This document shows, in pieces, positions 1 to 64,000 of a stretch of 64,000 nt of DNA (position 1 is its first letter; every line of letters begins with the position of its first letter). The stretch is from an uncultured Helicobacter sp. Lineage in GTDB: Bacteria; Campylobacterota; Campylobacteria; Campylobacterales; Helicobacteraceae. Under the pieces are notes generated by a model that did not search any database, was not told the DNA's origin, and saw nothing but the letters and a program-made list of their open reading frames with translations. The position numbers and the translations under genes are program-made. The stretch covers positions 34,408 through 98,407 of the forward strand of contig NZ_CANBCA010000003.1 in NCBI RefSeq assembly GCF_947367035.1, written 5' to 3'.

Positions 1-386
1 TTACTTGCCGCTCCCATAATTTTACCCATATCTTTTTTGGATTTTACTCCAATCTCGTTTAAAATTTTTTCTAACGCATTGCGCAAATCTTCCTCACCCA
101 ATTGCTCGGGTAAATATTCCATAATGACTTGCATTTCAAAATTTTCTTTTTGATATAAATCCTCTCGTCCTGCCTTTTTATAAGCCTCTGCCGCTTCCAA
201 ACGTTGTTTGTAAGCTTTTTTAAGAATTAAAATAACCTCTTTATCCTCTAAGTTCTTACGTTCATCTACTTCTACTTGTTTTAATGCACTACTTATCATT
301 CGTAGTGCATCACGTCTCTCTTTATGATTTTCCTTCATTGCCTTTTTAATATCATTTAAAATTCTTTCTTTTATAGCACTTACCAT
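1..386 (-). CDS. yqeY: GatB/YqeY domain protein, C-terminus cut by window edge
   Basis: A minus-strand frame starts at ATG 384-386, behind an AGGA ribosome site, and stays open to base 1, giving about 128 residues. The sequence (start MVSAIKERI, middle ERRDALRMISSALK, late LPEQLGEEDL and MGKIMGAAS) follows the YqeY family, which resembles the tRNA-binding tail of the GatB amidotransferase subunit. Family members are about 150 residues, so roughly 20 are missing outside the window. The family's role is unsettled; an accessory part in tRNA-dependent amidation is only suggested by the fold. It is divergent from flgH, and the two share the 84-bp gap. Confidence 0.85.
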   Translation of the reverse strand, partial: MVSAIKERILNDIKKAMKENHKERRDALRMISSALKQVEVDERKNLEDKEVILILKKAYKQRLEAAEAYKKAGREDLYQKENFEMQVIMEYLPEQLGEEDLRNALEKILNEIGVKSKKDMGKIMGAAS

Positions 387-402
387 TAATTATCCTTTGA
401 TT

Positions 403-420
403 TTGGAATGAGCTTTGCTT
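403..420 (+). promoter_or_regulatory. Sigma-54 (RpoN) promoter of flgH
   Basis: The bases read TTGGAATGAGCTTTGCTT. The -24 GG is at 405-406 and the -12 GC at 417-418, with exactly ten bases between, as RpoN requires. It agrees well with the Campylobacterota form TTGGAAC-N4-TTTGCTT. Transcription would start near 430, about 40 bases before the flgH start codon. RpoN control of middle flagellar genes is established in Helicobacter and Campylobacter; its use here is inferred. Confidence 0.8.
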
Positions 421-470
421 AAAGCTTTAAAAGTTAGGAATTATACCTAAAATTCACATAAGGAAATGCT

Positions 471-1208
471 ATGAAATTTAGAGCTATTTTTTTGAAATTA
501 TCCTTTGCTGTCGTGCCTTATTTTGCATTCGGGATTCTTTTTAGCGGTTGCGCTACAACAGAACCTCAAATCTCTTTCCGCCCCCCAGCGTATGTAGAAG
601 AACTACCTCCAAAAGAAGAGGAAGATAACTTTGGTAATCCAGGCAGTATTTTTGGACAAGGAGATAACTTATTGTTTTCAGACCGCCGTGCTATGCAATT
701 AAATGATTTAGTAACCGTCATTATCAATCAAACAGCTCAAGCAACTTCCACGGCAAACAAGAATCTTAATGAAACTTCAAATTCTAATTTAACAGGTCCT
801 GGAATCACTTTTGGTGGACCTAGTAGTAGTATTGGCAACTTAACAAGAACATTAAATAACTTGACAGGATTTGGCATTACAAGCGGTAACAATACTTCCA
901 CTTATCAAGGAGCAGGTTCGCAAAATCGTCAAGAAACTTTTTCTACAACGATTGCAGCACGTATTATTAAAGTAATGCAAAATGGAAATTATTTCATTGA
1001 AGGCAGTCGTGAAGTGCTGATTAATGGCGAAAAACAAATCATTCATTTGAGCGGGGTTGTGCGTCCAACAGATATAGCAAGAAATAACACTATAGAATCC
1101 CAATATATTGCAGACGCGAAAATTATGTATGACACACAAGGTGAATTAAAGAAAACCACCGAAAAAGGTTGGGGAACAAAACTTATTGAATCCGTTTGGC
1201 CTTTTTAA
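471..1208 (+). CDS. flgH: Flagellar L-ring lipoprotein FlgH
   Basis: FlgH forms the outer-membrane L ring around the flagellar rod. The 245-residue protein starts with a lipoprotein signal ending in FSGC (cysteine near residue 27), so it should be lipidated and sent to the outer membrane. The C-terminal half carries the family pattern: NGNYFIEGSREVLINGE, then SGVVRPTDIARNN, then IADAKIMYDTQG. Length is normal for the family. ATG 471 follows an AAGGA site. The upstream sigma-54 promoter supports a flagellar role. It stands alone, with thrC 57 bases downstream on its own likely promoter. Confidence 0.95.
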   Translation: MKFRAIFLKLSFAVVPYFAFGILFSGCATTEPQISFRPPAYVEELPPKEEEDNFGNPGSIFGQGDNLLFSDRRAMQLNDLVTVIINQTAQATSTANKNLNETSNSNLTGPGITFGGPSSSIGNLTRTLNNLTGFGITSGNNTSTYQGAGSQNRQETFSTTIAARIIKVMQNGNYFIEGSREVLINGEKQIIHLSGVVRPTDIARNNTIESQYIADAKIMYDTQGELKKTTEKGWGTKLIESVWPF

Positions 1209-1265
1209 AGACAAATTTTGGCTTGATTTTGGTAAAATACGCAAATTTATTCATAAAGGATTTGC

Positions 1266-2732
1266 GTGCAAACACAACATTTTATTGGCACTCGTGGGGG
1301 ACAAGATACCGCTTTAACTTTCAAAGATGCGGTTTTAAATCCAAATGCAGCGTTTGGGGGACTTTATACAGCCAAAAATCTTCCAAAATTTGATGGAGAT
1401 TCTATTAAAGAATTGAGTCAGTTAAATTATGAAGAATTGGCGCAAGAACTTTTTCGCCATTTAAATTTAGGTATACGTAAGGAATCTCTACAAGCTGCAT
1501 TACAACTCTACCATAATTTTGATGACCCTACTACGCCCTCACCTCTTTATTCAGTGCATCCCTATTTGAATGTGCAAAAACTCTATTGCGGACCTACGCG
1601 TGCTTTTAAAGATATGGCATTACAACCCTTTGGTTCTTTATTTAGCGATTTTTTAAAAGAATCCAAAAAAGACACAGATTATCTTATTTTAGTTGCAACA
1701 AGTGGTGATACTGGACCTGCAACTTTACAAAGCTTTGCGAACAAATCACATATTAAAGTTGTCTGCATTTATCCAGAAGGTGGAACGAGCGATGTCCAAC
1801 GTTTGCAAATGACTACGATTAATGCAGATAATATTAAAGTTTTTGGCATTAAAGGGGATTTTGATGAGGCACAAACTTTGTTAAAATCTCTTCTTAAAGA
1901 CCCAAAATTTAATGCGGTTTTAAAATCTAAAAATATTGCTTTAAGTGCTGCAAATAGTGTAAATTTTGGTAGAATCGCATTTCAAATTCTGTATCACGTT
2001 TATTCTAGTTTGCAAATCTTTAAAATCAATCATCAAAAAATCCATATCATCGTGCCAAGTGGTAATTTTGGCAATGCGCTAGGTGCATTTTATGCTAAAC
2101 TTATGGGATTCCCTATTGAGCGCATTTGGATTGCTTCTAATGCCAATAATGTTTTGACAGAATTTATCAATACAGGCATTTATGATATTTCAGAAAAATC
2201 CCTACAAAAGACTTATTCACCTGCAATGGACATTCTAAAAAGTTCCAACATTGAGCGTGTGCTTTTTACCCTCTTTGACGCACAGCGCACAAGAGAATTT
2301 ATGGAATCCCTAGAGCAAATCGGAAAATATAGTCTCACAAAAGAAGAACTTGCGTGGATACATATGTATTTTAGTGCAACAAGTTGCGATGATAATTATT
2401 GCCTTAAGACTATCAAAACCTATGCGGAAAAAGGCTATATCATAGACCCACATACAGCGTGTGGATTCAAAGCTTTTGAGGAAATCAAAGCCAAATTTCC
2501 TAACACACCTTGTGTGCTTTGTTCTACTGCAGAATGGACAAAATTTGCTCCAACTTTAGCTAAAGCACTTGGCTTAGGAGATTTAAGCGATAAAGAAGCC
2601 TTAGAGAGTATTTCTAAGACCTATAAAGTTACGATTCCTAAACAGATTTTCACTCTCTTCAATCAACCAGAAATTCATAATCAAGTTTTTGACAAAGAAA
2701 CACTTAGCCAAAAAATTTTAGAATGGTTATAA
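1266..2732 (+). CDS. thrC: Threonine synthase
   Basis: Threonine synthase converts O-phospho-L-homoserine to threonine using PLP in the cytoplasm. The 488-residue protein has the Y-G-G-L-like N-terminal region, the PLP-lysine motif GPTRAFKDMALQ (Lys115) and the phosphate-binding VATSGDTGPA loop. The start is GTG 1266, just behind AAAGGA at 1255-1260; no better ATG lies upstream. A TAAAAT -10 at 1233-1238 gives it its own promoter after flgH. The long form matches that of Gram-negative bacteria. Confidence 0.95.
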   Translation: MQTQHFIGTRGGQDTALTFKDAVLNPNAAFGGLYTAKNLPKFDGDSIKELSQLNYEELAQELFRHLNLGIRKESLQAALQLYHNFDDPTTPSPLYSVHPYLNVQKLYCGPTRAFKDMALQPFGSLFSDFLKESKKDTDYLILVATSGDTGPATLQSFANKSHIKVVCIYPEGGTSDVQRLQMTTINADNIKVFGIKGDFDEAQTLLKSLLKDPKFNAVLKSKNIALSAANSVNFGRIAFQILYHVYSSLQIFKINHQKIHIIVPSGNFGNALGAFYAKLMGFPIERIWIASNANNVLTEFINTGIYDISEKSLQKTYSPAMDILKSSNIERVLFTLFDAQRTREFMESLEQIGKYSLTKEELAWIHMYFSATSCDDNYCLKTIKTYAEKGYIIDPHTACGFKAFEEIKAKFPNTPCVLCSTAEWTKFAPTLAKALGLGDLSDKEALESISKTYKVTIPKQIFTLFNQPEIHNQVFDKETLSQKILEWL

Positions 2733-2741
2733 GGAATTTTA

Positions 2742-3626
2742 ATGTTATATTTTTCTGATTTACTTTTGAAATTGCAACAATTTTGGCGCAATCAAAATTG
2801 CTTGATTATTCAACCTTATGATATTCCAGCAGGTGCAGGCACTTTTCACCCTGCTACAATGCTTAGAAGTTTAGATTCTAAACCTTGGAGCGTAGCTTAT
2901 GTTGCCCCATCTCGCCGACCAACAGATGGACGTTATGGGGAAAATCCTAATCGCTTAGGAAGTTATTATCAGTTCCAAGTTCTCATTAAACCAAGCCTTA
3001 ATAATATCCAAGAGATTTATTTGAAAAGTTTAGAATACTTAGGTCTAAATCTTAAAGAACACGATATCCGATTTGTTGAAGATAATTGGGAATCTCCAAC
3101 GCTTGGTGCGTGGGGCTTAGGGTGGGAAGTTTGGTTAGATGGTATGGAAATAACACAATTCACTTACTTCCAACAAGTAGGTGGAATCCCTTGTGAGCCT
3201 GTGGCAGTTGAAATCACCTATGGAACAGAAAGATTAGCAATGTATTTACAAGGTGTGGAAAATGTTTTTAGTATTCAATGGAACGAACATTATAGCTATG
3301 CAGATGTGCATTTGGAGGGGGAATATGAATTTTCAAAATATAATTTTGAAATTGCGGATACCTCAATGCTATTTGAATTTTTTGCTAAAATACAAAATGA
3401 AGGCAATCAAGCCTTAAAAGCAGGACTGCCTTTACCCGCTTATGATTGCGCTATGCTCGCAAGTCATTTATTTAATGTATTAGATTCTAGAAAAGCAATT
3501 TCTGCAACAGAGCGTCAAAATTATATTCTAAAAATCCGAGAACTTTCTAAGGCGTGCGCAACCCTATACAAAGAGCAAGAACCTATGCGTCAAGAACGAT
3601 TAGAGTGTGCAAAGCAGAAACTCTAA
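2742..3626 (+). CDS. glyQ: Glycyl-tRNA synthetase alpha subunit
   Basis: This is the catalytic alpha subunit of the alpha2-beta2 bacterial GlyRS, which needs GlyS (not in the window). The 294 residues include the hallmark stretches [31 protein letters not shown] and [18 protein letters not shown], and the length is standard. ATG 2742 follows AAGGA. It opens a tight forward operon (glyQ, nif3, flgZ, waaA, rluA) with the order of H. pylori HP0960 to HP0956. Confidence 0.96.
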
Positions 3627-3645
3627 TTGTAAAGATTGTACGAAT

Positions 3646-4392
3646 ATGGTAAATAATAAAAAATACGATATTGCTACGATTCTTAAGTTTTTGGACACTC
3701 TAAGTCCCTTTAATCTACAAGAATCTTGGGATAATTCTGGATTAATTTTAGGCACACCCCATCATTGCTTTGAAAAAGTCTATTTAAGCTTAGAAGTAAC
3801 TCTTGAAGTGTTAGAGCAAATGGAATGTGATTCTTTACTCATTACGCACCACCCATTGATTTTTAATCCTCTTAAAACATTAGTCTTTGAAAGCTATCCC
3901 TCTAAGTTATTACAAATGGCTATATTAAAAAACATTCAACTCATTGCTATGCACACAAATTTTGATAAAACACATTTTGGCAAATATATCGTAAAAGAAA
4001 TCCTAAAGATTCAAAAATTTGAACAAAATGACTTTATGGTGTGTTTTAGATGGTGTGATAGTTTAGAATCCCTTTGCGCGCTTATCAAGGAGAAGTTTGC
4101 CTTAAAACAACTTAAAATCACAGAATCGCAAAATAAATATTGTCAAAATATTGCCCTTGTTACAGGAAGCGGTGGGGGATTCGTTCATTCACTTGATAAC
4201 ATAGACTGCCTCATCACAGGTGATGTAAAATACCACGAAGCAATGGAAGCTTTGGTTAAAAATCTTCACATCATTGATTGTGGGCATTATGAATTAGAAC
4301 GTTACTTTGGTGAAATCTTGTTGCCCTTTTTGACAAATCAAGGCTATAAAGCTATAATTTTAGATTCACAAAATCCCTTTAATTTTGTTTAA
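3646..4392 (+). CDS. Nif3-like dinuclear metal centre protein
   Basis: This is a member of the Nif3/YbgI family, ring-shaped hexamers with two metals per subunit; the physiological reaction is unsettled. Visible family motifs are LDTLSPFNLQESWDNSGL, the metal-binding TH-HP-LIF motif (ITHHPLIFNPLK), the AMHTNFD motif, and a late TGDVKYHEA followed by IDCGHYELE. I chose ATG 3646 because MVNNKKYDI begins where family members begin. An in-frame GTG at 3607 inside the glyQ tail would add 13 unrelated residues. It is the HP0959 counterpart by position. Confidence 0.88.
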   Translation: MVNNKKYDIATILKFLDTLSPFNLQESWDNSGLILGTPHHCFEKVYLSLEVTLEVLEQMECDSLLITHHPLIFNPLKTLVFESYPSKLLQMAILKNIQLIAMHTNFDKTHFGKYIVKEILKIQKFEQNDFMVCFRWCDSLESLCALIKEKFALKQLKITESQNKYCQNIALVTGSGGGFVHSLDNIDCLITGDVKYHEAMEALVKNLHIIDCGHYELERYFGEILLPFLTNQGYKAIILDSQNPFNFV

Positions 4393-4421
4393 ATAATATT
4401 TTAATCTTTGGAGTAGCTGTT

Positions 4422-5135
4422 ATGAATAAGCATTTAAGTCAATTAATTGAAATTGCAAATCTTGATAAAGAAATTGATTCTTTTGAGCCTCGCATTAAAG
4501 AAGTGAGAAAAGAGTTAAATCTCATTGAAGAGGAAGAAAATACGCTCAATCGTGAAGTAGAAGAGCTTGAAAGTGCAACACGTGATATTTCACTTTCTAT
4601 TGCCAAAAATGAGAATCACTTAGAAGATTTATCCTTAAAACTAGAAGAGATTGCCAACAAAACAAAACTAATTAAAACGGAAAAAGAGAGTAAAGCATTA
4701 AGCTTAGAAGAGGAACTCGCCAAAGAGCAAATTACTTTTGCTAATGAAGAAATTGCTCGCTTAAATACGCTCATAGAATCCAAAAAAGATTCCATTAATT
4801 CTTTAAAAGAAAAAATAGATTCATTAAAAATCAGCGAAAAAGAAATTGCACAAAAGGTAGCAGTAGAAGTCCAAAAGGTAAAAGAAGAACAAAAAAAGGT
4901 TTTCACTCAAAAAGAAGAACTTGTTAGTAAAATGGACCAAAAAATTATCTCATTTTATGAAAAAATTCGCAAATGGGCAAAAAACACAAGTGTTGTGTCT
5001 ATTACACGTCAAGCGTGTGGTGGTTGCTTTATTCGCATCAATGATAAGATTTATTCTGATGTTATCCGCCTTGATAATATTATCACTTGCCCTCATTGCG
5101 GTAGAATCCTTTACTTTCAAGAAGAAAATGCTTAA
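4422..5135 (+). CDS. flgZ: Coiled-coil zinc-ribbon protein, FlgZ (HP0958) family
   Basis: The first 175 or so of 237 residues form a long charged coiled-coil hairpin, followed by a four-cysteine zinc ribbon (C199, C202, C223, C226 in ACGGC and CPHC). This is the HP0958 architecture, and its neighbours match HP0957 and HP0959. In H. pylori the protein stabilises RpoN (sigma-54) and binds flaA message, linking it to flagellar expression. This fits the sigma-54 promoter of flgH 4 kb upstream. Start ATG 4422 follows GGAG. The function is transferred by homology and synteny. Confidence 0.88.
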   Translation: MNKHLSQLIEIANLDKEIDSFEPRIKEVRKELNLIEEEENTLNREVEELESATRDISLSIAKNENHLEDLSLKLEEIANKTKLIKTEKESKALSLEEELAKEQITFANEEIARLNTLIESKKDSINSLKEKIDSLKISEKEIAQKVAVEVQKVKEEQKKVFTQKEELVSKMDQKIISFYEKIRKWAKNTSVVSITRQACGGCFIRINDKIYSDVIRLDNIITCPHCGRILYFQEENA

Positions 5136-5141
5136 TTTATA

Positions 5142-6413
5142 ATGAATCTTTTTATTAGGATTTACTATATTGTGCTTTGTATAGCACATATTTGTGCTAT
5201 ACCCTTTTTACTTCTTTTAAACTTTAAGTTAAAATATCGTTTCTCTCTTAAAAAACGTTTTTTTGTACCCGATTCTTTACTCCAAGATGCAACAGGTTTC
5301 AAACTACATTGGCTACATTCCTGCTCATTTGGAGAGGTTCAATCCCTACAAAGTGTAATAGAATCTCTTATAAAACAACTCTCTAGTGATGAAAAGATTT
5401 TGCTTACTACTACTACACAAACGGGTTTCACTCTTGCTTGCAAACTTTATCCAAAGTGTATCGTGCGTTATTTGCCCTTTGAAACTTTGATTCCTTTTTG
5501 GTTGCACAAGATTAATTTGGTAAGTCTTACATTGGTAGAAGCGGAACTATGGCTTATGCCTTTAGTTTGTGCTAAATCAAAAGGTGCCAAGACACTACTT
5601 ATTAATGCTAGAATTTCTAAACATTCTTTTCCACGTTATAAAAGATTTAGATTTTTTTATCGTAGGCTCTTTAGTCTTGTGGAAAAAATTTTTTGTCAAA
5701 CACATTCTGATGAAAAATATCTTAAGATATTAGGCGCTAAAAATATTGAAGTTTTAGGGAATTTAAAATTAGCTCAAATTCCGCAAGTAAGTGTTCATTA
5801 CACCTCTCCAAAGCAACCTTTATGGGTAATTGCTAGCACACATTGTAAGCATCATCAAAGTGAAGAAACCCTAATCCTAGATGCTATTTTAAAGGCATTT
5901 TTTATAGACAACCCCAATCAAAATTCCAACTTAGAATCTATGCCGCGTTTTTTATTTGCTCCTCGCCACCCAGAACGTTTTTTAGAAGTAGAATCTCGAT
6001 TAAATAAAATCTTAAAATCCCATTCCCTCCCCCTTTTAGTAAAAACTTCAAATAATGGTGTGCAAAATGCCCTCAACGCTCCCTTTATTCTGCTAGATTC
6101 TTTAGGAGAGTTGAATAATCTTTACAAAATTGCACAAGGAGTGATTCTAGGGGGAAGTTTCTTGAAAGATATTGGGGGACACAATCCAATAGAACCCGCA
6201 TTTTTTCGCACTAAACTCATTAGTGGAATTTATATTTTTAATCAAAAATCACTCTTTTTTAGCATACAAAATTATACTTTATGCTCTATTCAAAATTTGC
6301 CAAAAGCCTTGCAAAAATATAAAGTTTTAAAAAATACAAAAATTACCAAAAAACTCAATCTTAAAAAAATCATTCAAGCCATTTGCGCCAATAAGGTCAT
6401 CAATGAAAAATAA
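5142..6413 (+). CDS. waaA: Kdo transferase (3-deoxy-D-manno-octulosonic acid transferase)
   Basis: WaaA attaches Kdo to lipid A precursors at the inner face of the inner membrane. The 423-residue protein has an N-terminal membrane anchor (about residues 3-27), the H-S-CSFGE motif near residue 60, the VEAELW motif and the late GGSF...GGHNPIEPA donor-binding region. It begins 6 bases after flgZ with a weak ribosome site, suggesting translational coupling. Its last 11 bases overlap the next gene. It would use the CMP-Kdo made by the kdsB product at 24.4 kb. Confidence 0.94.
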   Translation: MNLFIRIYYIVLCIAHICAIPFLLLLNFKLKYRFSLKKRFFVPDSLLQDATGFKLHWLHSCSFGEVQSLQSVIESLIKQLSSDEKILLTTTTQTGFTLACKLYPKCIVRYLPFETLIPFWLHKINLVSLTLVEAELWLMPLVCAKSKGAKTLLINARISKHSFPRYKRFRFFYRRLFSLVEKIFCQTHSDEKYLKILGAKNIEVLGNLKLAQIPQVSVHYTSPKQPLWVIASTHCKHHQSEETLILDAILKAFFIDNPNQNSNLESMPRFLFAPRHPERFLEVESRLNKILKSHSLPLLVKTSNNGVQNALNAPFILLDSLGELNNLYKIAQGVILGGSFLKDIGGHNPIEPAFFRTKLISGIYIFNQKSLFFSIQNYTLCSIQNLPKALQKYKVLKNTKITKKLNLKKIIQAICANKVINEK

Positions 6414-60571: not shown

Positions 60572-60814
60572 ATGCCCTATGTTAATATTAAAATTACAAG
60601 AGAAAATGGCACACCTACTAAAGAACAAAAACAAAGCATTATCGCAGGGGTTACGAATCTTTTAAGTGAAGTGTTGGGTAGAAACCCTGCTTCACTTGTT
60701 GTTGTCATTGACGAAATTGACTGCGATAATTATGGAGTAGGTGGAATCACAATTACACAAAAACGTAAAGAAAATGCAACAAACTCCCATCAAACCAACG
60801 AGATAAATTTATGA
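60572..60814 (+). CDS. 4-oxalocrotonate tautomerase family protein (DmpI-like)
   Basis: The 80-residue protein begins MPYVNIKITRENG, so Met removal would expose the catalytic Pro1. A lysine- and arginine-bearing segment (LLSEVLGRNPASLVVVIDEI) follows the family. Such enzymes are hexamers acting on 2-hydroxymuconate-like substrates, but the natural substrate in Helicobacter (HP0924) is unclear. It overlaps polA by ATGA at 60811-60814. Confidence 0.9.
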   Translation: MPYVNIKITRENGTPTKEQKQSIIAGVTNLLSEVLGRNPASLVVVIDEIDCDNYGVGGITITQKRKENATNSHQTNEINL

Positions 60815-63528
60815 AAACACTTACAATCATTGATACATTTGGTTTCCTCTTTCGCAGTTATTTTGCCCTACCACCACTTAAAAACCACGATGGTTTTCCC
60901 ACAGGACTACTCACAGGCTTTGCAAAACTGATTATGCAATTATATAAGGACTATCCACAAGATTATTTAGTGTTTGCACTAGATTCCAAGGAAGAAAACT
61001 TCCGCAAAAGTATAGACCCGCTTTATAAAGCAAATCGTCCGGAAGTCCCACAAGACCTTAAATTACAATTAAAAGTCGCGATTGATTGGGTAGAACAAAT
61101 GGGGTTTAAAAACCTTTCCATTGCAGGATATGAGGCTGATGATGTGATAGCCTCTATCAACAAGCAAGCAAATAATCTTAATGTTTATGTGCGAATTATC
61201 AGCCACGATAAAGACCTTTATCAACTCATTGATGGGGATACTTTTCTTTTTGACCCTAAGAAAAAAAAGGAAATACACGAAATAGATTGCCTAGAAAAAT
61301 ATGGGGTTACGCCAGCACAATTTGTGGATTTTCAAAGCTTAGTGGGCGATAACTCTGATAATATTCCGGGCGTCAAAGGAATCGGAGCAAAAGGTGCAGC
61401 GGGATTGTTGTGTAACTTTCAAACCTTAGATGGAATCTATGAAAATATTAACAAAATTGCCTCCAAACGCACACAAGAACTACTAAAACTTCATAAAGAC
61501 GATGCTTATCGTAGTCAAAAACTTGTGCGTTTGCGTGATGATTTGTTAGAAGATTTCAATTTGCAAGATTGCCAAATGCCCCACCAAAACCCTTTGCTAA
61601 AAATCACGCAATCCCTAAAAGCCTATGAAATCAATAGCATATTAAAAAAGATTCTACCTAAAGATTTACCAAAAAACTCTTTGCACTTATTTCAAAACTC
61701 TACAAAAATTAGAGAATCGCAAGATTTTATTCCACAAACACCAGCACCAACCCCCTTTCACTTCAAAGCCCATTTACTAAACACTGATGAAAAATTACGT
61801 GATTTTTTACCTCAAATTACCCGCGATTCTATCGTATCTTTTGACACCGAAACAACAAATTTAGATGTATTGAATGCTAAAATCGTGGGATTCTCCTTTA
61901 GTCTTGATGGAATCAATGCCTATTACGCACCTTTGGCACATAATTATCTAGGCGTAGAAGAACAAATAAGCAAACAAGTCGCCCTAGAATTTATCCAAGC
62001 ACTTTTTAATGCCAAAGCCATTATTGGACATAATTTGAAATATGACTTAGAAATCTTACGCACAAACTTTAACTTCACTCCTCAAAATTTCTTTAACATT
62101 AAAGATAGTATGCTTGTCGCTTGGCTTTACCAAAGCGACTTGCCTTGTAACCTTGATTCACTAATGTTACGATACTTCAAACACGAGATGATTCATTATA
62201 AAGATGTGGTTAAAAAGGGGGAAAATTTCTCACAGATTCCAATAGAATATGCTTGTCAATATGCTAGTGAAGACGCAGCAGCTTGTTATCAACTCTATCA
62301 AAAGCTAACTAGCCTACTTCCGCCCAATCTACTTCAAGTCGCGCAATCCACAGAATTTCCCTTTATTCAATGTCTTGTGAATATGGAATTAAGCGGGACA
62401 AAAATTGATATTGAATATTTTAAAGAACTCAAATCTGAAATGTCTGCCAAACTTTCTAGCCTTTCAGAGGAGATTTTCTCCCTTGCGCAAAAGAATTTCA
62501 ACCTCAACTCACCCCAACAGCTCTCTATTGTGTTATTTGAAGATTTAAAATTACAAAGTGGCAAAAAAACAAAATCTGGTTTAAGCACTTCTCAAATGGT
62601 GTTAAACTCTCTCTTTGATGCACACCCCATCGTCCCAAAAATCCTAGAATATCGTGAGCTTTTCAAGCTTTTTAGCACCTATATTGAACCTTTAATTGAA
62701 CACGCGAAACTCAACTCTGCACATAAAATCTACACTTCATTTATGCAAACAGGCACAAGCACAGGCAGACTAAGCTCTAAAAATCCCAATTTGCAAAATA
62801 TTCCTGTCAAAACTGCGCAGGGCAGACGCATAAGGCAAGGTTTCATTGCACAAGAAAACCATCTACTCGTAAGCCTAGATTATTCGCAAATTGAACTAAG
62901 ACTTTTGGCTCATTTCTCACAAGATAAAGCAATGATTGAAGCGTTTCGGCAAAATGCAGATATTCATCTTGAAACTGCCAAAAAAATATTTGGTGAAGAT
63001 TTAGCAAAAGAAAAACGTGCAGTGGCTAAAAGCATTAATTTTGGGCTTATCTATGGTATGGGACCAAAAAAACTCTCTGAAACATTAAAAATCAGCTTCC
63101 AAGAAGCAAAAACTTATATCCAAAACTATTTTGAATCTTTCCCAACCGTGAAAGATTTTTTAAAAGCTCAAGAAGATTTTATTTTAGAAAATGGCTATTC
63201 TCTTACCTTATTAGGGCGAATGCGCAAATTTGATTTTCGTGGAACACAAGAATACCAAAAAGCAGCATTTTTGCGTGAGGGAATCAATGCAATCTTTCAA
63301 GGAAGTGCAGCAGACATTATTAAAATGGCAATGAATGCTATCACACAAGCAAATTTAAAATCTAAATTACTTTTACAAGTGCATGACGAATTAATTTTTG
63401 AATCTCCCAAAAATTATGCACAAGAGGAAGCACAAAAAATCGCTTCTATTATGGAAAACATCACTACTTTAAAAATCCCTCTCAAATGCACCATTAGCAC
63501 CGCAAATAATTGGGGCGAATTGAAATAG
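60811..63528 (+). CDS. polA: DNA polymerase I
   Basis: The 905 residues include a 5'-nuclease domain (YEADDVIAS, SHDKDLYQL, GDNSDNIPGVKGIGAKGA), a 3'-5' exonuclease domain and a polymerase domain (SLDYSQIELRLLAHFS, AKSINFGLIYGMG, LQVHDELIFE). All three proofreading motifs look intact: FDTETTNLD, GHNLKYDLEI and YASEDAAACY. It fills gaps left by primer removal and repair. Its start overlaps the tautomerase stop. Confidence 0.96.
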   Translation: MKTLTIIDTFGFLFRSYFALPPLKNHDGFPTGLLTGFAKLIMQLYKDYPQDYLVFALDSKEENFRKSIDPLYKANRPEVPQDLKLQLKVAIDWVEQMGFKNLSIAGYEADDVIASINKQANNLNVYVRIISHDKDLYQLIDGDTFLFDPKKKKEIHEIDCLEKYGVTPAQFVDFQSLVGDNSDNIPGVKGIGAKGAAGLLCNFQTLDGIYENINKIASKRTQELLKLHKDDAYRSQKLVRLRDDLLEDFNLQDCQMPHQNPLLKITQSLKAYEINSILKKILPKDLPKNSLHLFQNSTKIRESQDFIPQTPAPTPFHFKAHLLNTDEKLRDFLPQITRDSIVSFDTETTNLDVLNAKIVGFSFSLDGINAYYAPLAHNYLGVEEQISKQVALEFIQALFNAKAIIGHNLKYDLEILRTNFNFTPQNFFNIKDSMLVAWLYQSDLPCNLDSLMLRYFKHEMIHYKDVVKKGENFSQIPIEYACQYASEDAAACYQLYQKLTSLLPPNLLQVAQSTEFPFIQCLVNMELSGTKIDIEYFKELKSEMSAKLSSLSEEIFSLAQKNFNLNSPQQLSIVLFEDLKLQSGKKTKSGLSTSQMVLNSLFDAHPIVPKILEYRELFKLFSTYIEPLIEHAKLNSAHKIYTSFMQTGTSTGRLSSKNPNLQNIPVKTAQGRRIRQGFIAQENHLLVSLDYSQIELRLLAHFSQDKAMIEAFRQNADIHLETAKKIFGEDLAKEKRAVAKSINFGLIYGMGPKKLSETLKISFQEAKTYIQNYFESFPTVKDFLKAQEDFILENGYSLTLLGRMRKFDFRGTQEYQKAAFLREGINAIFQGSAADIIKMAMNAITQANLKSKLLLQVHDELIFESPKNYAQEEAQKIASIMENITTLKIPLKCTISTANNWGELK

Positions 63529-63774: not shown

Positions 63775-63801
63775 TTGACACCCCCCCCAATTTGCTACAA
63801 T
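63775..63801 (+). promoter_or_regulatory. Promoter with C8 homopolymer spacer, probably phase-variable
   Basis: -35 TTGACA (63775-63780) is a perfect consensus. The 15-base spacer begins with C8 (63781-63788), and an extended -10 TGC-TACAAT (63793-63801) follows. Poly-C is the only C or G run of 8 noticed in the window. Adding or losing C changes -35/-10 spacing away from or toward the 17-bp optimum, so slippage could switch expression strength. Confidence 0.65.
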
Positions 63802-63810
63802 TTGAACCTT

Positions 63811-63936
63811 GCTTTAGTTAGGTTAGAATATTCCTAAAGCTAGATCTTACTTGATTGATAGGGTGAAGCGGATTAAAGCACAAGTTTGCTTTATGAAGCC
63901 TTAGCCCTAAGTAGTCAGAGTTGTAATTTCGAAATT
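63811..63936 (+). promoter_or_regulatory. Structured 5' leader
   Basis: In the predicted leader, GCTTTAG (63811-63817) pairs with CTAAAGC (63834-63840), AAAGCA pairs with TGCTTT around a 6-base loop (63875-63892), and AATTTCGAAATT (63925-63936) is a perfect palindrome just before the AAGGAG site. The hairpins could stabilise the message or control translation; they do not match a riboswitch I know. Confidence 0.45.
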
Positions 63937-63957
63937 TTAACGAAAAAGGAGATTAAA

Positions 63958-64000
63958 ATGAAATTTCTAAAATTAAGTTTAGCAGCAAGTGTTGCTTTAG
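63958..64000 (+). CDS. Start of a secreted or outer-membrane protein
   Basis: The 14 visible residues (MKFLKLSLAASVAL) look like the beginning of a Sec signal peptide, with Lys residues then a hydrophobic run. An AAGGAG site is present before ATG 63958. The long leader and strong promoter suggest an abundant product. The signal resembles those of Campylobacter/Helicobacter major outer-membrane proteins, but the mature protein is outside the window, so its identity is inference. Confidence 0.6.
   Translation, partial: MKFLKLSLAASVAL

Follow-up and report, generated by a model that had tools for sequence, protein, structure and literature searches.

A cytosine tract between the -35 and -10 boxes of a MOMP porin gene, a candidate phase-variable locus in Helicobacter

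Introduction

Switching of gene expression by promoter tracts of variable length is already known from Neisseria meningitidis porA, Helicobacter pylori sabA, and a set of tracts in Helicobacter canadensis. For porA, a tract of 11G is reported to give high expression, while 10G and 9G give 2-fold and 13-fold lower expression, respectively (PMC3639595). The T-tract of sabA ranges from T5 to T22 between strains (PMC4081817). In H. canadensis, five of 29 tracts are described as G-tracts in predicted promoters with length variation at the level of sequencing reads, and the five genes concerned are annotated as hypothetical, conserved hypothetical, an IgA1 protease, and two vacuolating cytotoxin precursors (PMC2823697).

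A MOMP porin gene appears to be a new setting for such a tract. PorA, the Campylobacter member of this family, is reported to be essential in C. jejuni and C. coli (PMC10077673), and a survey of the Campylobacter phasome never uses the word porA in its main text (PMC6321876). No report of a MOMP promoter tract in Helicobacter appeared among the literature matches listed, a survey of titles and the opening parts of abstracts that lay outside most subscription journals. Here we describe a run of eight cytosines between the -35 and -10 boxes of a MOMP gene at the end of a 64-kb stretch of DNA (64,000 nucleotides, hereafter the window) from an uncultured Helicobacter sp., and we propose that it is probably a porA-like promoter-spacer contingency locus of the porin.

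Results

Promoter and predicted leader

The forward strand at 63775-63801 reads TTGACA-CCCCCCCC-AATTTGC-TACAAT. This comprises a perfect consensus -35 box (TTGACA, 63775-63780), the C8 tract (63781-63788), the spacer remainder AATTTGC (63789-63795), the last bases of which form an extended -10 (TGC, 63793-63795), and the -10 box TACAAT (63796-63801). The two boxes are therefore separated by 15 bases, eight of them C, and the coordinates at which the initial annotation placed this arrangement were confirmed in the sequence. Upstream on the same strand lies polA (60811-63528; Pfam DNA_pol_A), whose product shares 91.6% identity with its counterpart in H. rodentium ATCC 700285, and downstream are a ribosome-binding site (AAGGAG, 63946-63951, forward strand) and an ATG at 63958.

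Extrapolating from the -10 box, we guess that transcription might start near 63808, which would give a predicted 5' leader at 63808-63957 on the forward strand, large parts of which are conserved in four species. It contains a short inverted repeat (GCTTTAG at 63811-63817 and CTAAAGC at 63834-63840). A consensus of the four leaders gave no covariation support for a fold (covariation term +0.12), and the sole Rfam match, U7, had an E value of 0.92 and fell below the gathering score, so no RNA element is claimed. Just 5' of the ribosome-binding site is a palindrome, AATTTCGAAATT (63925-63936), which is unchanged in the four aligned species and was also found upstream of several other MOMP copies.

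The downstream porin gene and the assembly break

The source genome (designated G000) comprises 1.76 Mb in 48 contigs, and the window forms the terminal part of its contig C3, so that only 43 bases of the downstream gene (63958-64000, forward strand; 14 codons, MKFLKLSLAASVAL) are present before the contig break. The final 55 bases of C3 recur unchanged at one end of contig C12, and there the remainder of a Campylo_MOMP (PF05538) gene was detected as two pieces of 212.5 and 127.2 bits (cut-off 29.6). Through this overlap, the start of a product that had been annotated as opening with a signal peptide can be recognized as the start of a Campylo_MOMP gene. The target of the promoter is thus an outer-membrane protein, judging by the Campylo_MOMP pieces on C12 and by the four copies found in relatives, which are described below.

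How C3 continues is complicated by contig C30, which terminates with these 55 bases too (G000:C30:1-160, L010, minus strand) and carries a MOMP promoter of its own, whose spacer contains a T9 run and measures 16 (from TTGCAT) or 17 (from TTTGCA) bases. As C3, C12, and C30 end in identical bases, the assembly evidently broke at a repeat, namely the start of a duplicated porin gene. The 55-base overlap favors joining C3 to C12, but that C30 ends in the same bases argues against certainty; judged from the contig sequences, C3 likely continues into the C12 body. Gene order in relatives points both ways. In favor of the join, polA and a relative of the methylase gene on C12 are convergent and separated by ~3.4 kb in the genome taken as H. 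ganmani (G006:C9), where an autotransporter gene takes the place of the porin; against its certainty, in H. rodentium the two genes share one strand and are ~6.5 kb from each other, with other genes in the interval. The gene that follows another H. ganmani porin (L116) has its G000 relative in the middle of C3. Further MOMP genes of G000 are located on C13 and C14.

The likely C12 continuation contains an in-frame TGA at codon 208 (G000:C12, L007:5186-5188, minus strand), so the present copy may not yield a full-length porin, and the gene that the tract precedes in the source strain may be a broken one.

Conservation among relatives

The comparison set consisted of 19 Helicobacter genomes, one genome per species, including H. 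rodentium ATCC 700285 (G010), Helicobacter sp. MIT 05-5294 (G011), and G006, taken as H. ganmani. A DNA search of these 19 genomes with the block from 63744 onward found 80-81% identity at two places in H. ganmani and in H. rodentium and MIT 05-5294. The pattern TTGACANCCCC-N4..30-TGCTANAAT matched five times in four of the 19 genomes, each time upstream of a MOMP-type start, and its reversed control matched nowhere. These five promoters share the TTGACA box, and the homopolymer lies inside the core spacer, as in porA, both in the window and in the four copies of the relatives.

What varies between species is the length of the tract, which is C8 in G000, C13 in both H. ganmani copies and in H. 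rodentium, and C12 in MIT 05-5294. In the four-species alignment ACTTGACA and ATTTGCTA-AAT are unchanged, as are the -35 box and the ATTTGC of the spacer remainder, while the -10 box is TAAAAT in the relatives; the tract is the sole length difference in the promoter core. All four relatives' copies are long open Campylo_MOMP genes of 481-508 residues. The two H. ganmani copies match in 480 of 481 residues, and due to this near-identity their equal C13 tracts are not independent observations.

The position of the gene is also variable. The neighbors of the poly-C MOMP gene differ among H. ganmani (G006:C4; L114 and L115), G000, H. rodentium, and MIT 05-5294, and the two H. ganmani copies are ~24 kb apart; the differing neighbors and the near-identical pair suggest duplication or relocation. 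In H. rodentium and MIT 05-5294 the DNA search found the poly-C copy plus one more distant MOMP start each, so in these species the poly-C promoter may be the sole one for this porin type.

Beyond the comparison set, a promoter scan of genome contigs returned ten records, comprising H. rodentium ATCC 700285, Helicobacter sp. MIT 05-5294, and eight non-Helicobacter records, and a scan of viral contigs gave no matches. A protein search found 277 relatives, and many of the 120 matches listed are named H. ganmani or H. rodentium. Six Nitrospinota/Nitrospirota records (L040, L041, L042, L043, L048, L049) carry a promoter-like TTGACA-CCCCCC-...-TTTGCTAGAAT or TTTGCTAAAAT, in which neither the C6 run nor the 16-base spacer varies.

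Rarity of the tract and mismatch repair

The initial annotation had noticed no other C or G run of eight. This holds for the 64-kb window, where the C8 tract is the only such run and where the next longest are two of six, with none of seven; it fails genome-wide, where tracts of at least eight number 60 on both strands, some of them at contig tips. Three tips (G000:C5:1-52, C12:1-60, and C40:1-40) consist of long runs of C or of G and C alone and are probably artefacts of assembly or sequencing that slightly raise the count. Shuffled windows contained a mean of 0.16 such runs, with at least one in 13 of 100 shuffles. A C8 run alone is therefore within chance, but chance was rejected as the full explanation as the promoter is conserved across species, and based on its promoter position and conservation we treat the tract as real.

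Neither MutS_I (PF01624) nor MutL (PF01119) was matched in any of the 19 genus genomes, while each was detected in 11 of 14 control genomes. Absence of MutS/MutL mismatch repair is generally typical of the Campylobacterota. The locus thus combines a C run of at least seven with the absence of MutS_I and MutL matches, features expected of a G/C-tract contingency locus in this phylum. In Campylobacter, G/C runs of at least seven are taken as potentially phase-variable (PMC6321876), and in the H. canadensis reads a tract called as G10 spans G8-11 and one called as G9 spans G7-11 (PMC2823697). Judged by this cut-off and this read variation, C8 is short yet reachable by slippage.

Spacing in tract-free orthologues

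Orthologous MOMP promoters that lack a poly-C tract provide a reference for the spacing. In all 14 that were examined (one from each of 12 other genomes, together with L116 of H. ganmani and C30), TTG-16..18-TAhAAT is present no more than 200 bases from the start codon, whereas 1000 shuffled sets averaged 0.72 and never exceeded 4, a comparison in which the 16-18 range was set after inspection and the sequences are related. The H. canadensis promoter (G003, L129) is one without poly-C and has a spacer of 17 or 18. None of the five poly-C promoters has this arrangement, their spacers being 15, 19, 20, 20, and 20. The contrast of 14/14 with 0/5 indicates that spacing seems to matter. It also speaks against the earlier remark that the -35 box is often of little importance in this group, which finds no support in this gene, given the TTG at this distance in all 14 tract-free orthologues examined.

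Four paralogous copies (L008, L119, L120, L121) had been set apart before the count, and none contains TTG-16..18-TAhAAT. The count also leaves aside the copies of G004 and G014, weaker matches in G001, G008, and G009, and the C14 paralogue; the DNA search found no MOMP-start match in G015. Upstream of the paralogous genes L119 and L120 are tandem 11-base repeats, TATAATTTAAG, each with a TATAAT, and related arrays occur in L121 and L008, with repeat numbers that differ between genomes. By their sequence, these arrays are possibly another length-variable promoter device.

A second family of tract-containing promoters

A census of the comparison set for TTGAC...G8+...TANNAT found eight matches in six of the 19 genomes and none with the reversed control. 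Six of the eight, which precede genes of surface type, have the form TTGACTTTTAA-G13 or G14-TATTAT with a spacer of 18 or 19, and are located at G000:C10:41401-41431 (minus strand), G006:C9:13831-13861, G010:C13:45633-45662, and, in MIT 05-5294, C38:111226-111256, C85:66372-66402, and C100:8406-8435. By eye, the open reading frames behind them have signal-peptide-like starts, one being lipoprotein-like with a TTG start. The H. ganmani gene on C9 encodes an autotransporter (PF03797), which the product of the G000 gene on C10 (1047 aa) resembles at both ends, also by eye. The same census with a C tract gave six matches, of which five are the MOMP promoters, and three for the reversed control, so by itself the C pattern exceeds chance only modestly. 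The occurrence of a second, independent family in the same clade makes promoter-spacer tracts look like a recurrent device there.

Discussion

Proposed switch and alternatives

In the mechanism we propose, replication slippage would add or remove single C's in the MOMP promoter spacer, and the changed spacing would alter polymerase binding, so that MOMP transcription would rise or fall. Because the spacer equals the tract length plus seven, C9, C10, and C11 give spacers of 16-18, while C8 (15), C12 (19), and C13 (20) would leave the promoter weak or partly off. The conserved extended -10 (TGC before TACAAT or TAAAAT), as read from the sequence, could lessen the dependence of the promoter on the -35 box and may leave basal activity, which makes volume control as likely as an on/off switch.

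The tract may instead be a static C-rich spacer whose role is confined to setting promoter strength and whose length changes slowly from species to species, with no switching within a population. The Nitrospinota/Nitrospirota records, with their similar promoter, C6, and constant spacer, are consistent with this, as are the position of C8 at the short end for slippage and the fact that the length differences are between species, each represented by one genome. However, tract length is all that changes while both flanks are kept, all five spacers fall outside the range of the tract-free orthologues, and the genome has many other tracts and no MutS_I or MutL match, all of which render a static spacer decidedly unlikely. 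We consider it unlikely, too, that the promoter is a relic which formerly switched a porin gene now broken in the source strain, where porin would come from the C30 promoter and the C13 and C14 paralogues. The in-frame TGA in the C12 body, the separate C30 promoter with a spacer of 16 or 17, and the other MOMP genes on C13 and C14 fit such a history; against it, the assembly leaves the pairing of promoter and body ambiguous, and the relatives' poly-C copies are long and open. Moreover, the argument bears on the source strain and not on the clade.

Two further alternatives retain a role for the tract but assign it a different mode of action. As a graded rheostat, its length would set polymerase affinity through DNA bending and helical phase, as has been described for sabA in this genus, with a T-tract that adjoins the -35 (PMC4081817); here the tract is within the core spacer, where distance itself changes, and the tract-free orthologues keep 16-18, so we regard this mode as very improbable. 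The C-run could also act in RNA as a target of a RepG-type regulatory RNA, in a transcript starting farther upstream, and control of this kind through a leader G-run is reported for H. pylori (PMC8295292). Its location exactly between the conserved perfect TTGACA and the conserved TACAAT leaves this with almost no credibility. Among these explanations, we favor the contingency locus, in which spacing is the variable.

A broader hypothesis, which we put forward tentatively and hold to be doubtful, concerns the H. rodentium-H. ganmani group, in which promoter, leader, and signal peptide would recombine together as a switch cassette and so bring a spacer prone to slippage in front of interchangeable MOMP bodies at different chromosomal sites. 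MOMP would in this way come under stochastic control alongside surface genes with G-tract spacers of their own, and clonal cells would carry different porin mixtures.

Implications and comparison with known systems

If the C8 promoter is a contingency locus, a major porin of a Helicobacter group would be expressed by a lottery of C-run length, and one population would contain cells at different porin levels. As the MOMP family is essential in C. jejuni and C. coli, stochastic control of it is the surprising part. The locus also bears, for a MOMP gene, on the view that -35 boxes matter little in Helicobacter, and it comes with a built-in comparative control, since the same gene has a 16-18 spacer in sister species.

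As in sabA, a homopolymer is found in the promoter region of a Helicobacter outer-membrane protein gene. The sabA tract, however, adjoins the -35 and is described as acting via DNA shape and alpha-subunit contacts (PMC4081817), whereas the C8 tract is not adjacent to the promoter core but inside its spacer. The promoter tracts of H. canadensis differ in their targets, as none of the five genes is labelled MOMP in that report (PMC2823697). By its product, the locus is like Campylobacter MOMP (PorA, Cj1259), which belongs to the same family, Campylo_MOMP (PF05538). The closest likeness in promoter design is to N. meningitidis porA, also a gene for a major outer-membrane porin whose -35 and -10 boxes are separated by a homopolymer. 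It differs in that its tract is poly-G on the coding strand and not poly-C, in that the organism is unrelated, and in that the effect of tract length is proven in porA and putative here. The parallel with Neisseria porA drawn in the initial annotation nonetheless fits, with the same promoter position, the same gene class, a length that differs between relatives, and hexamers that are kept. If this reading is correct, porA-type promoter switches extend to the MOMP family of the Campylobacterota.
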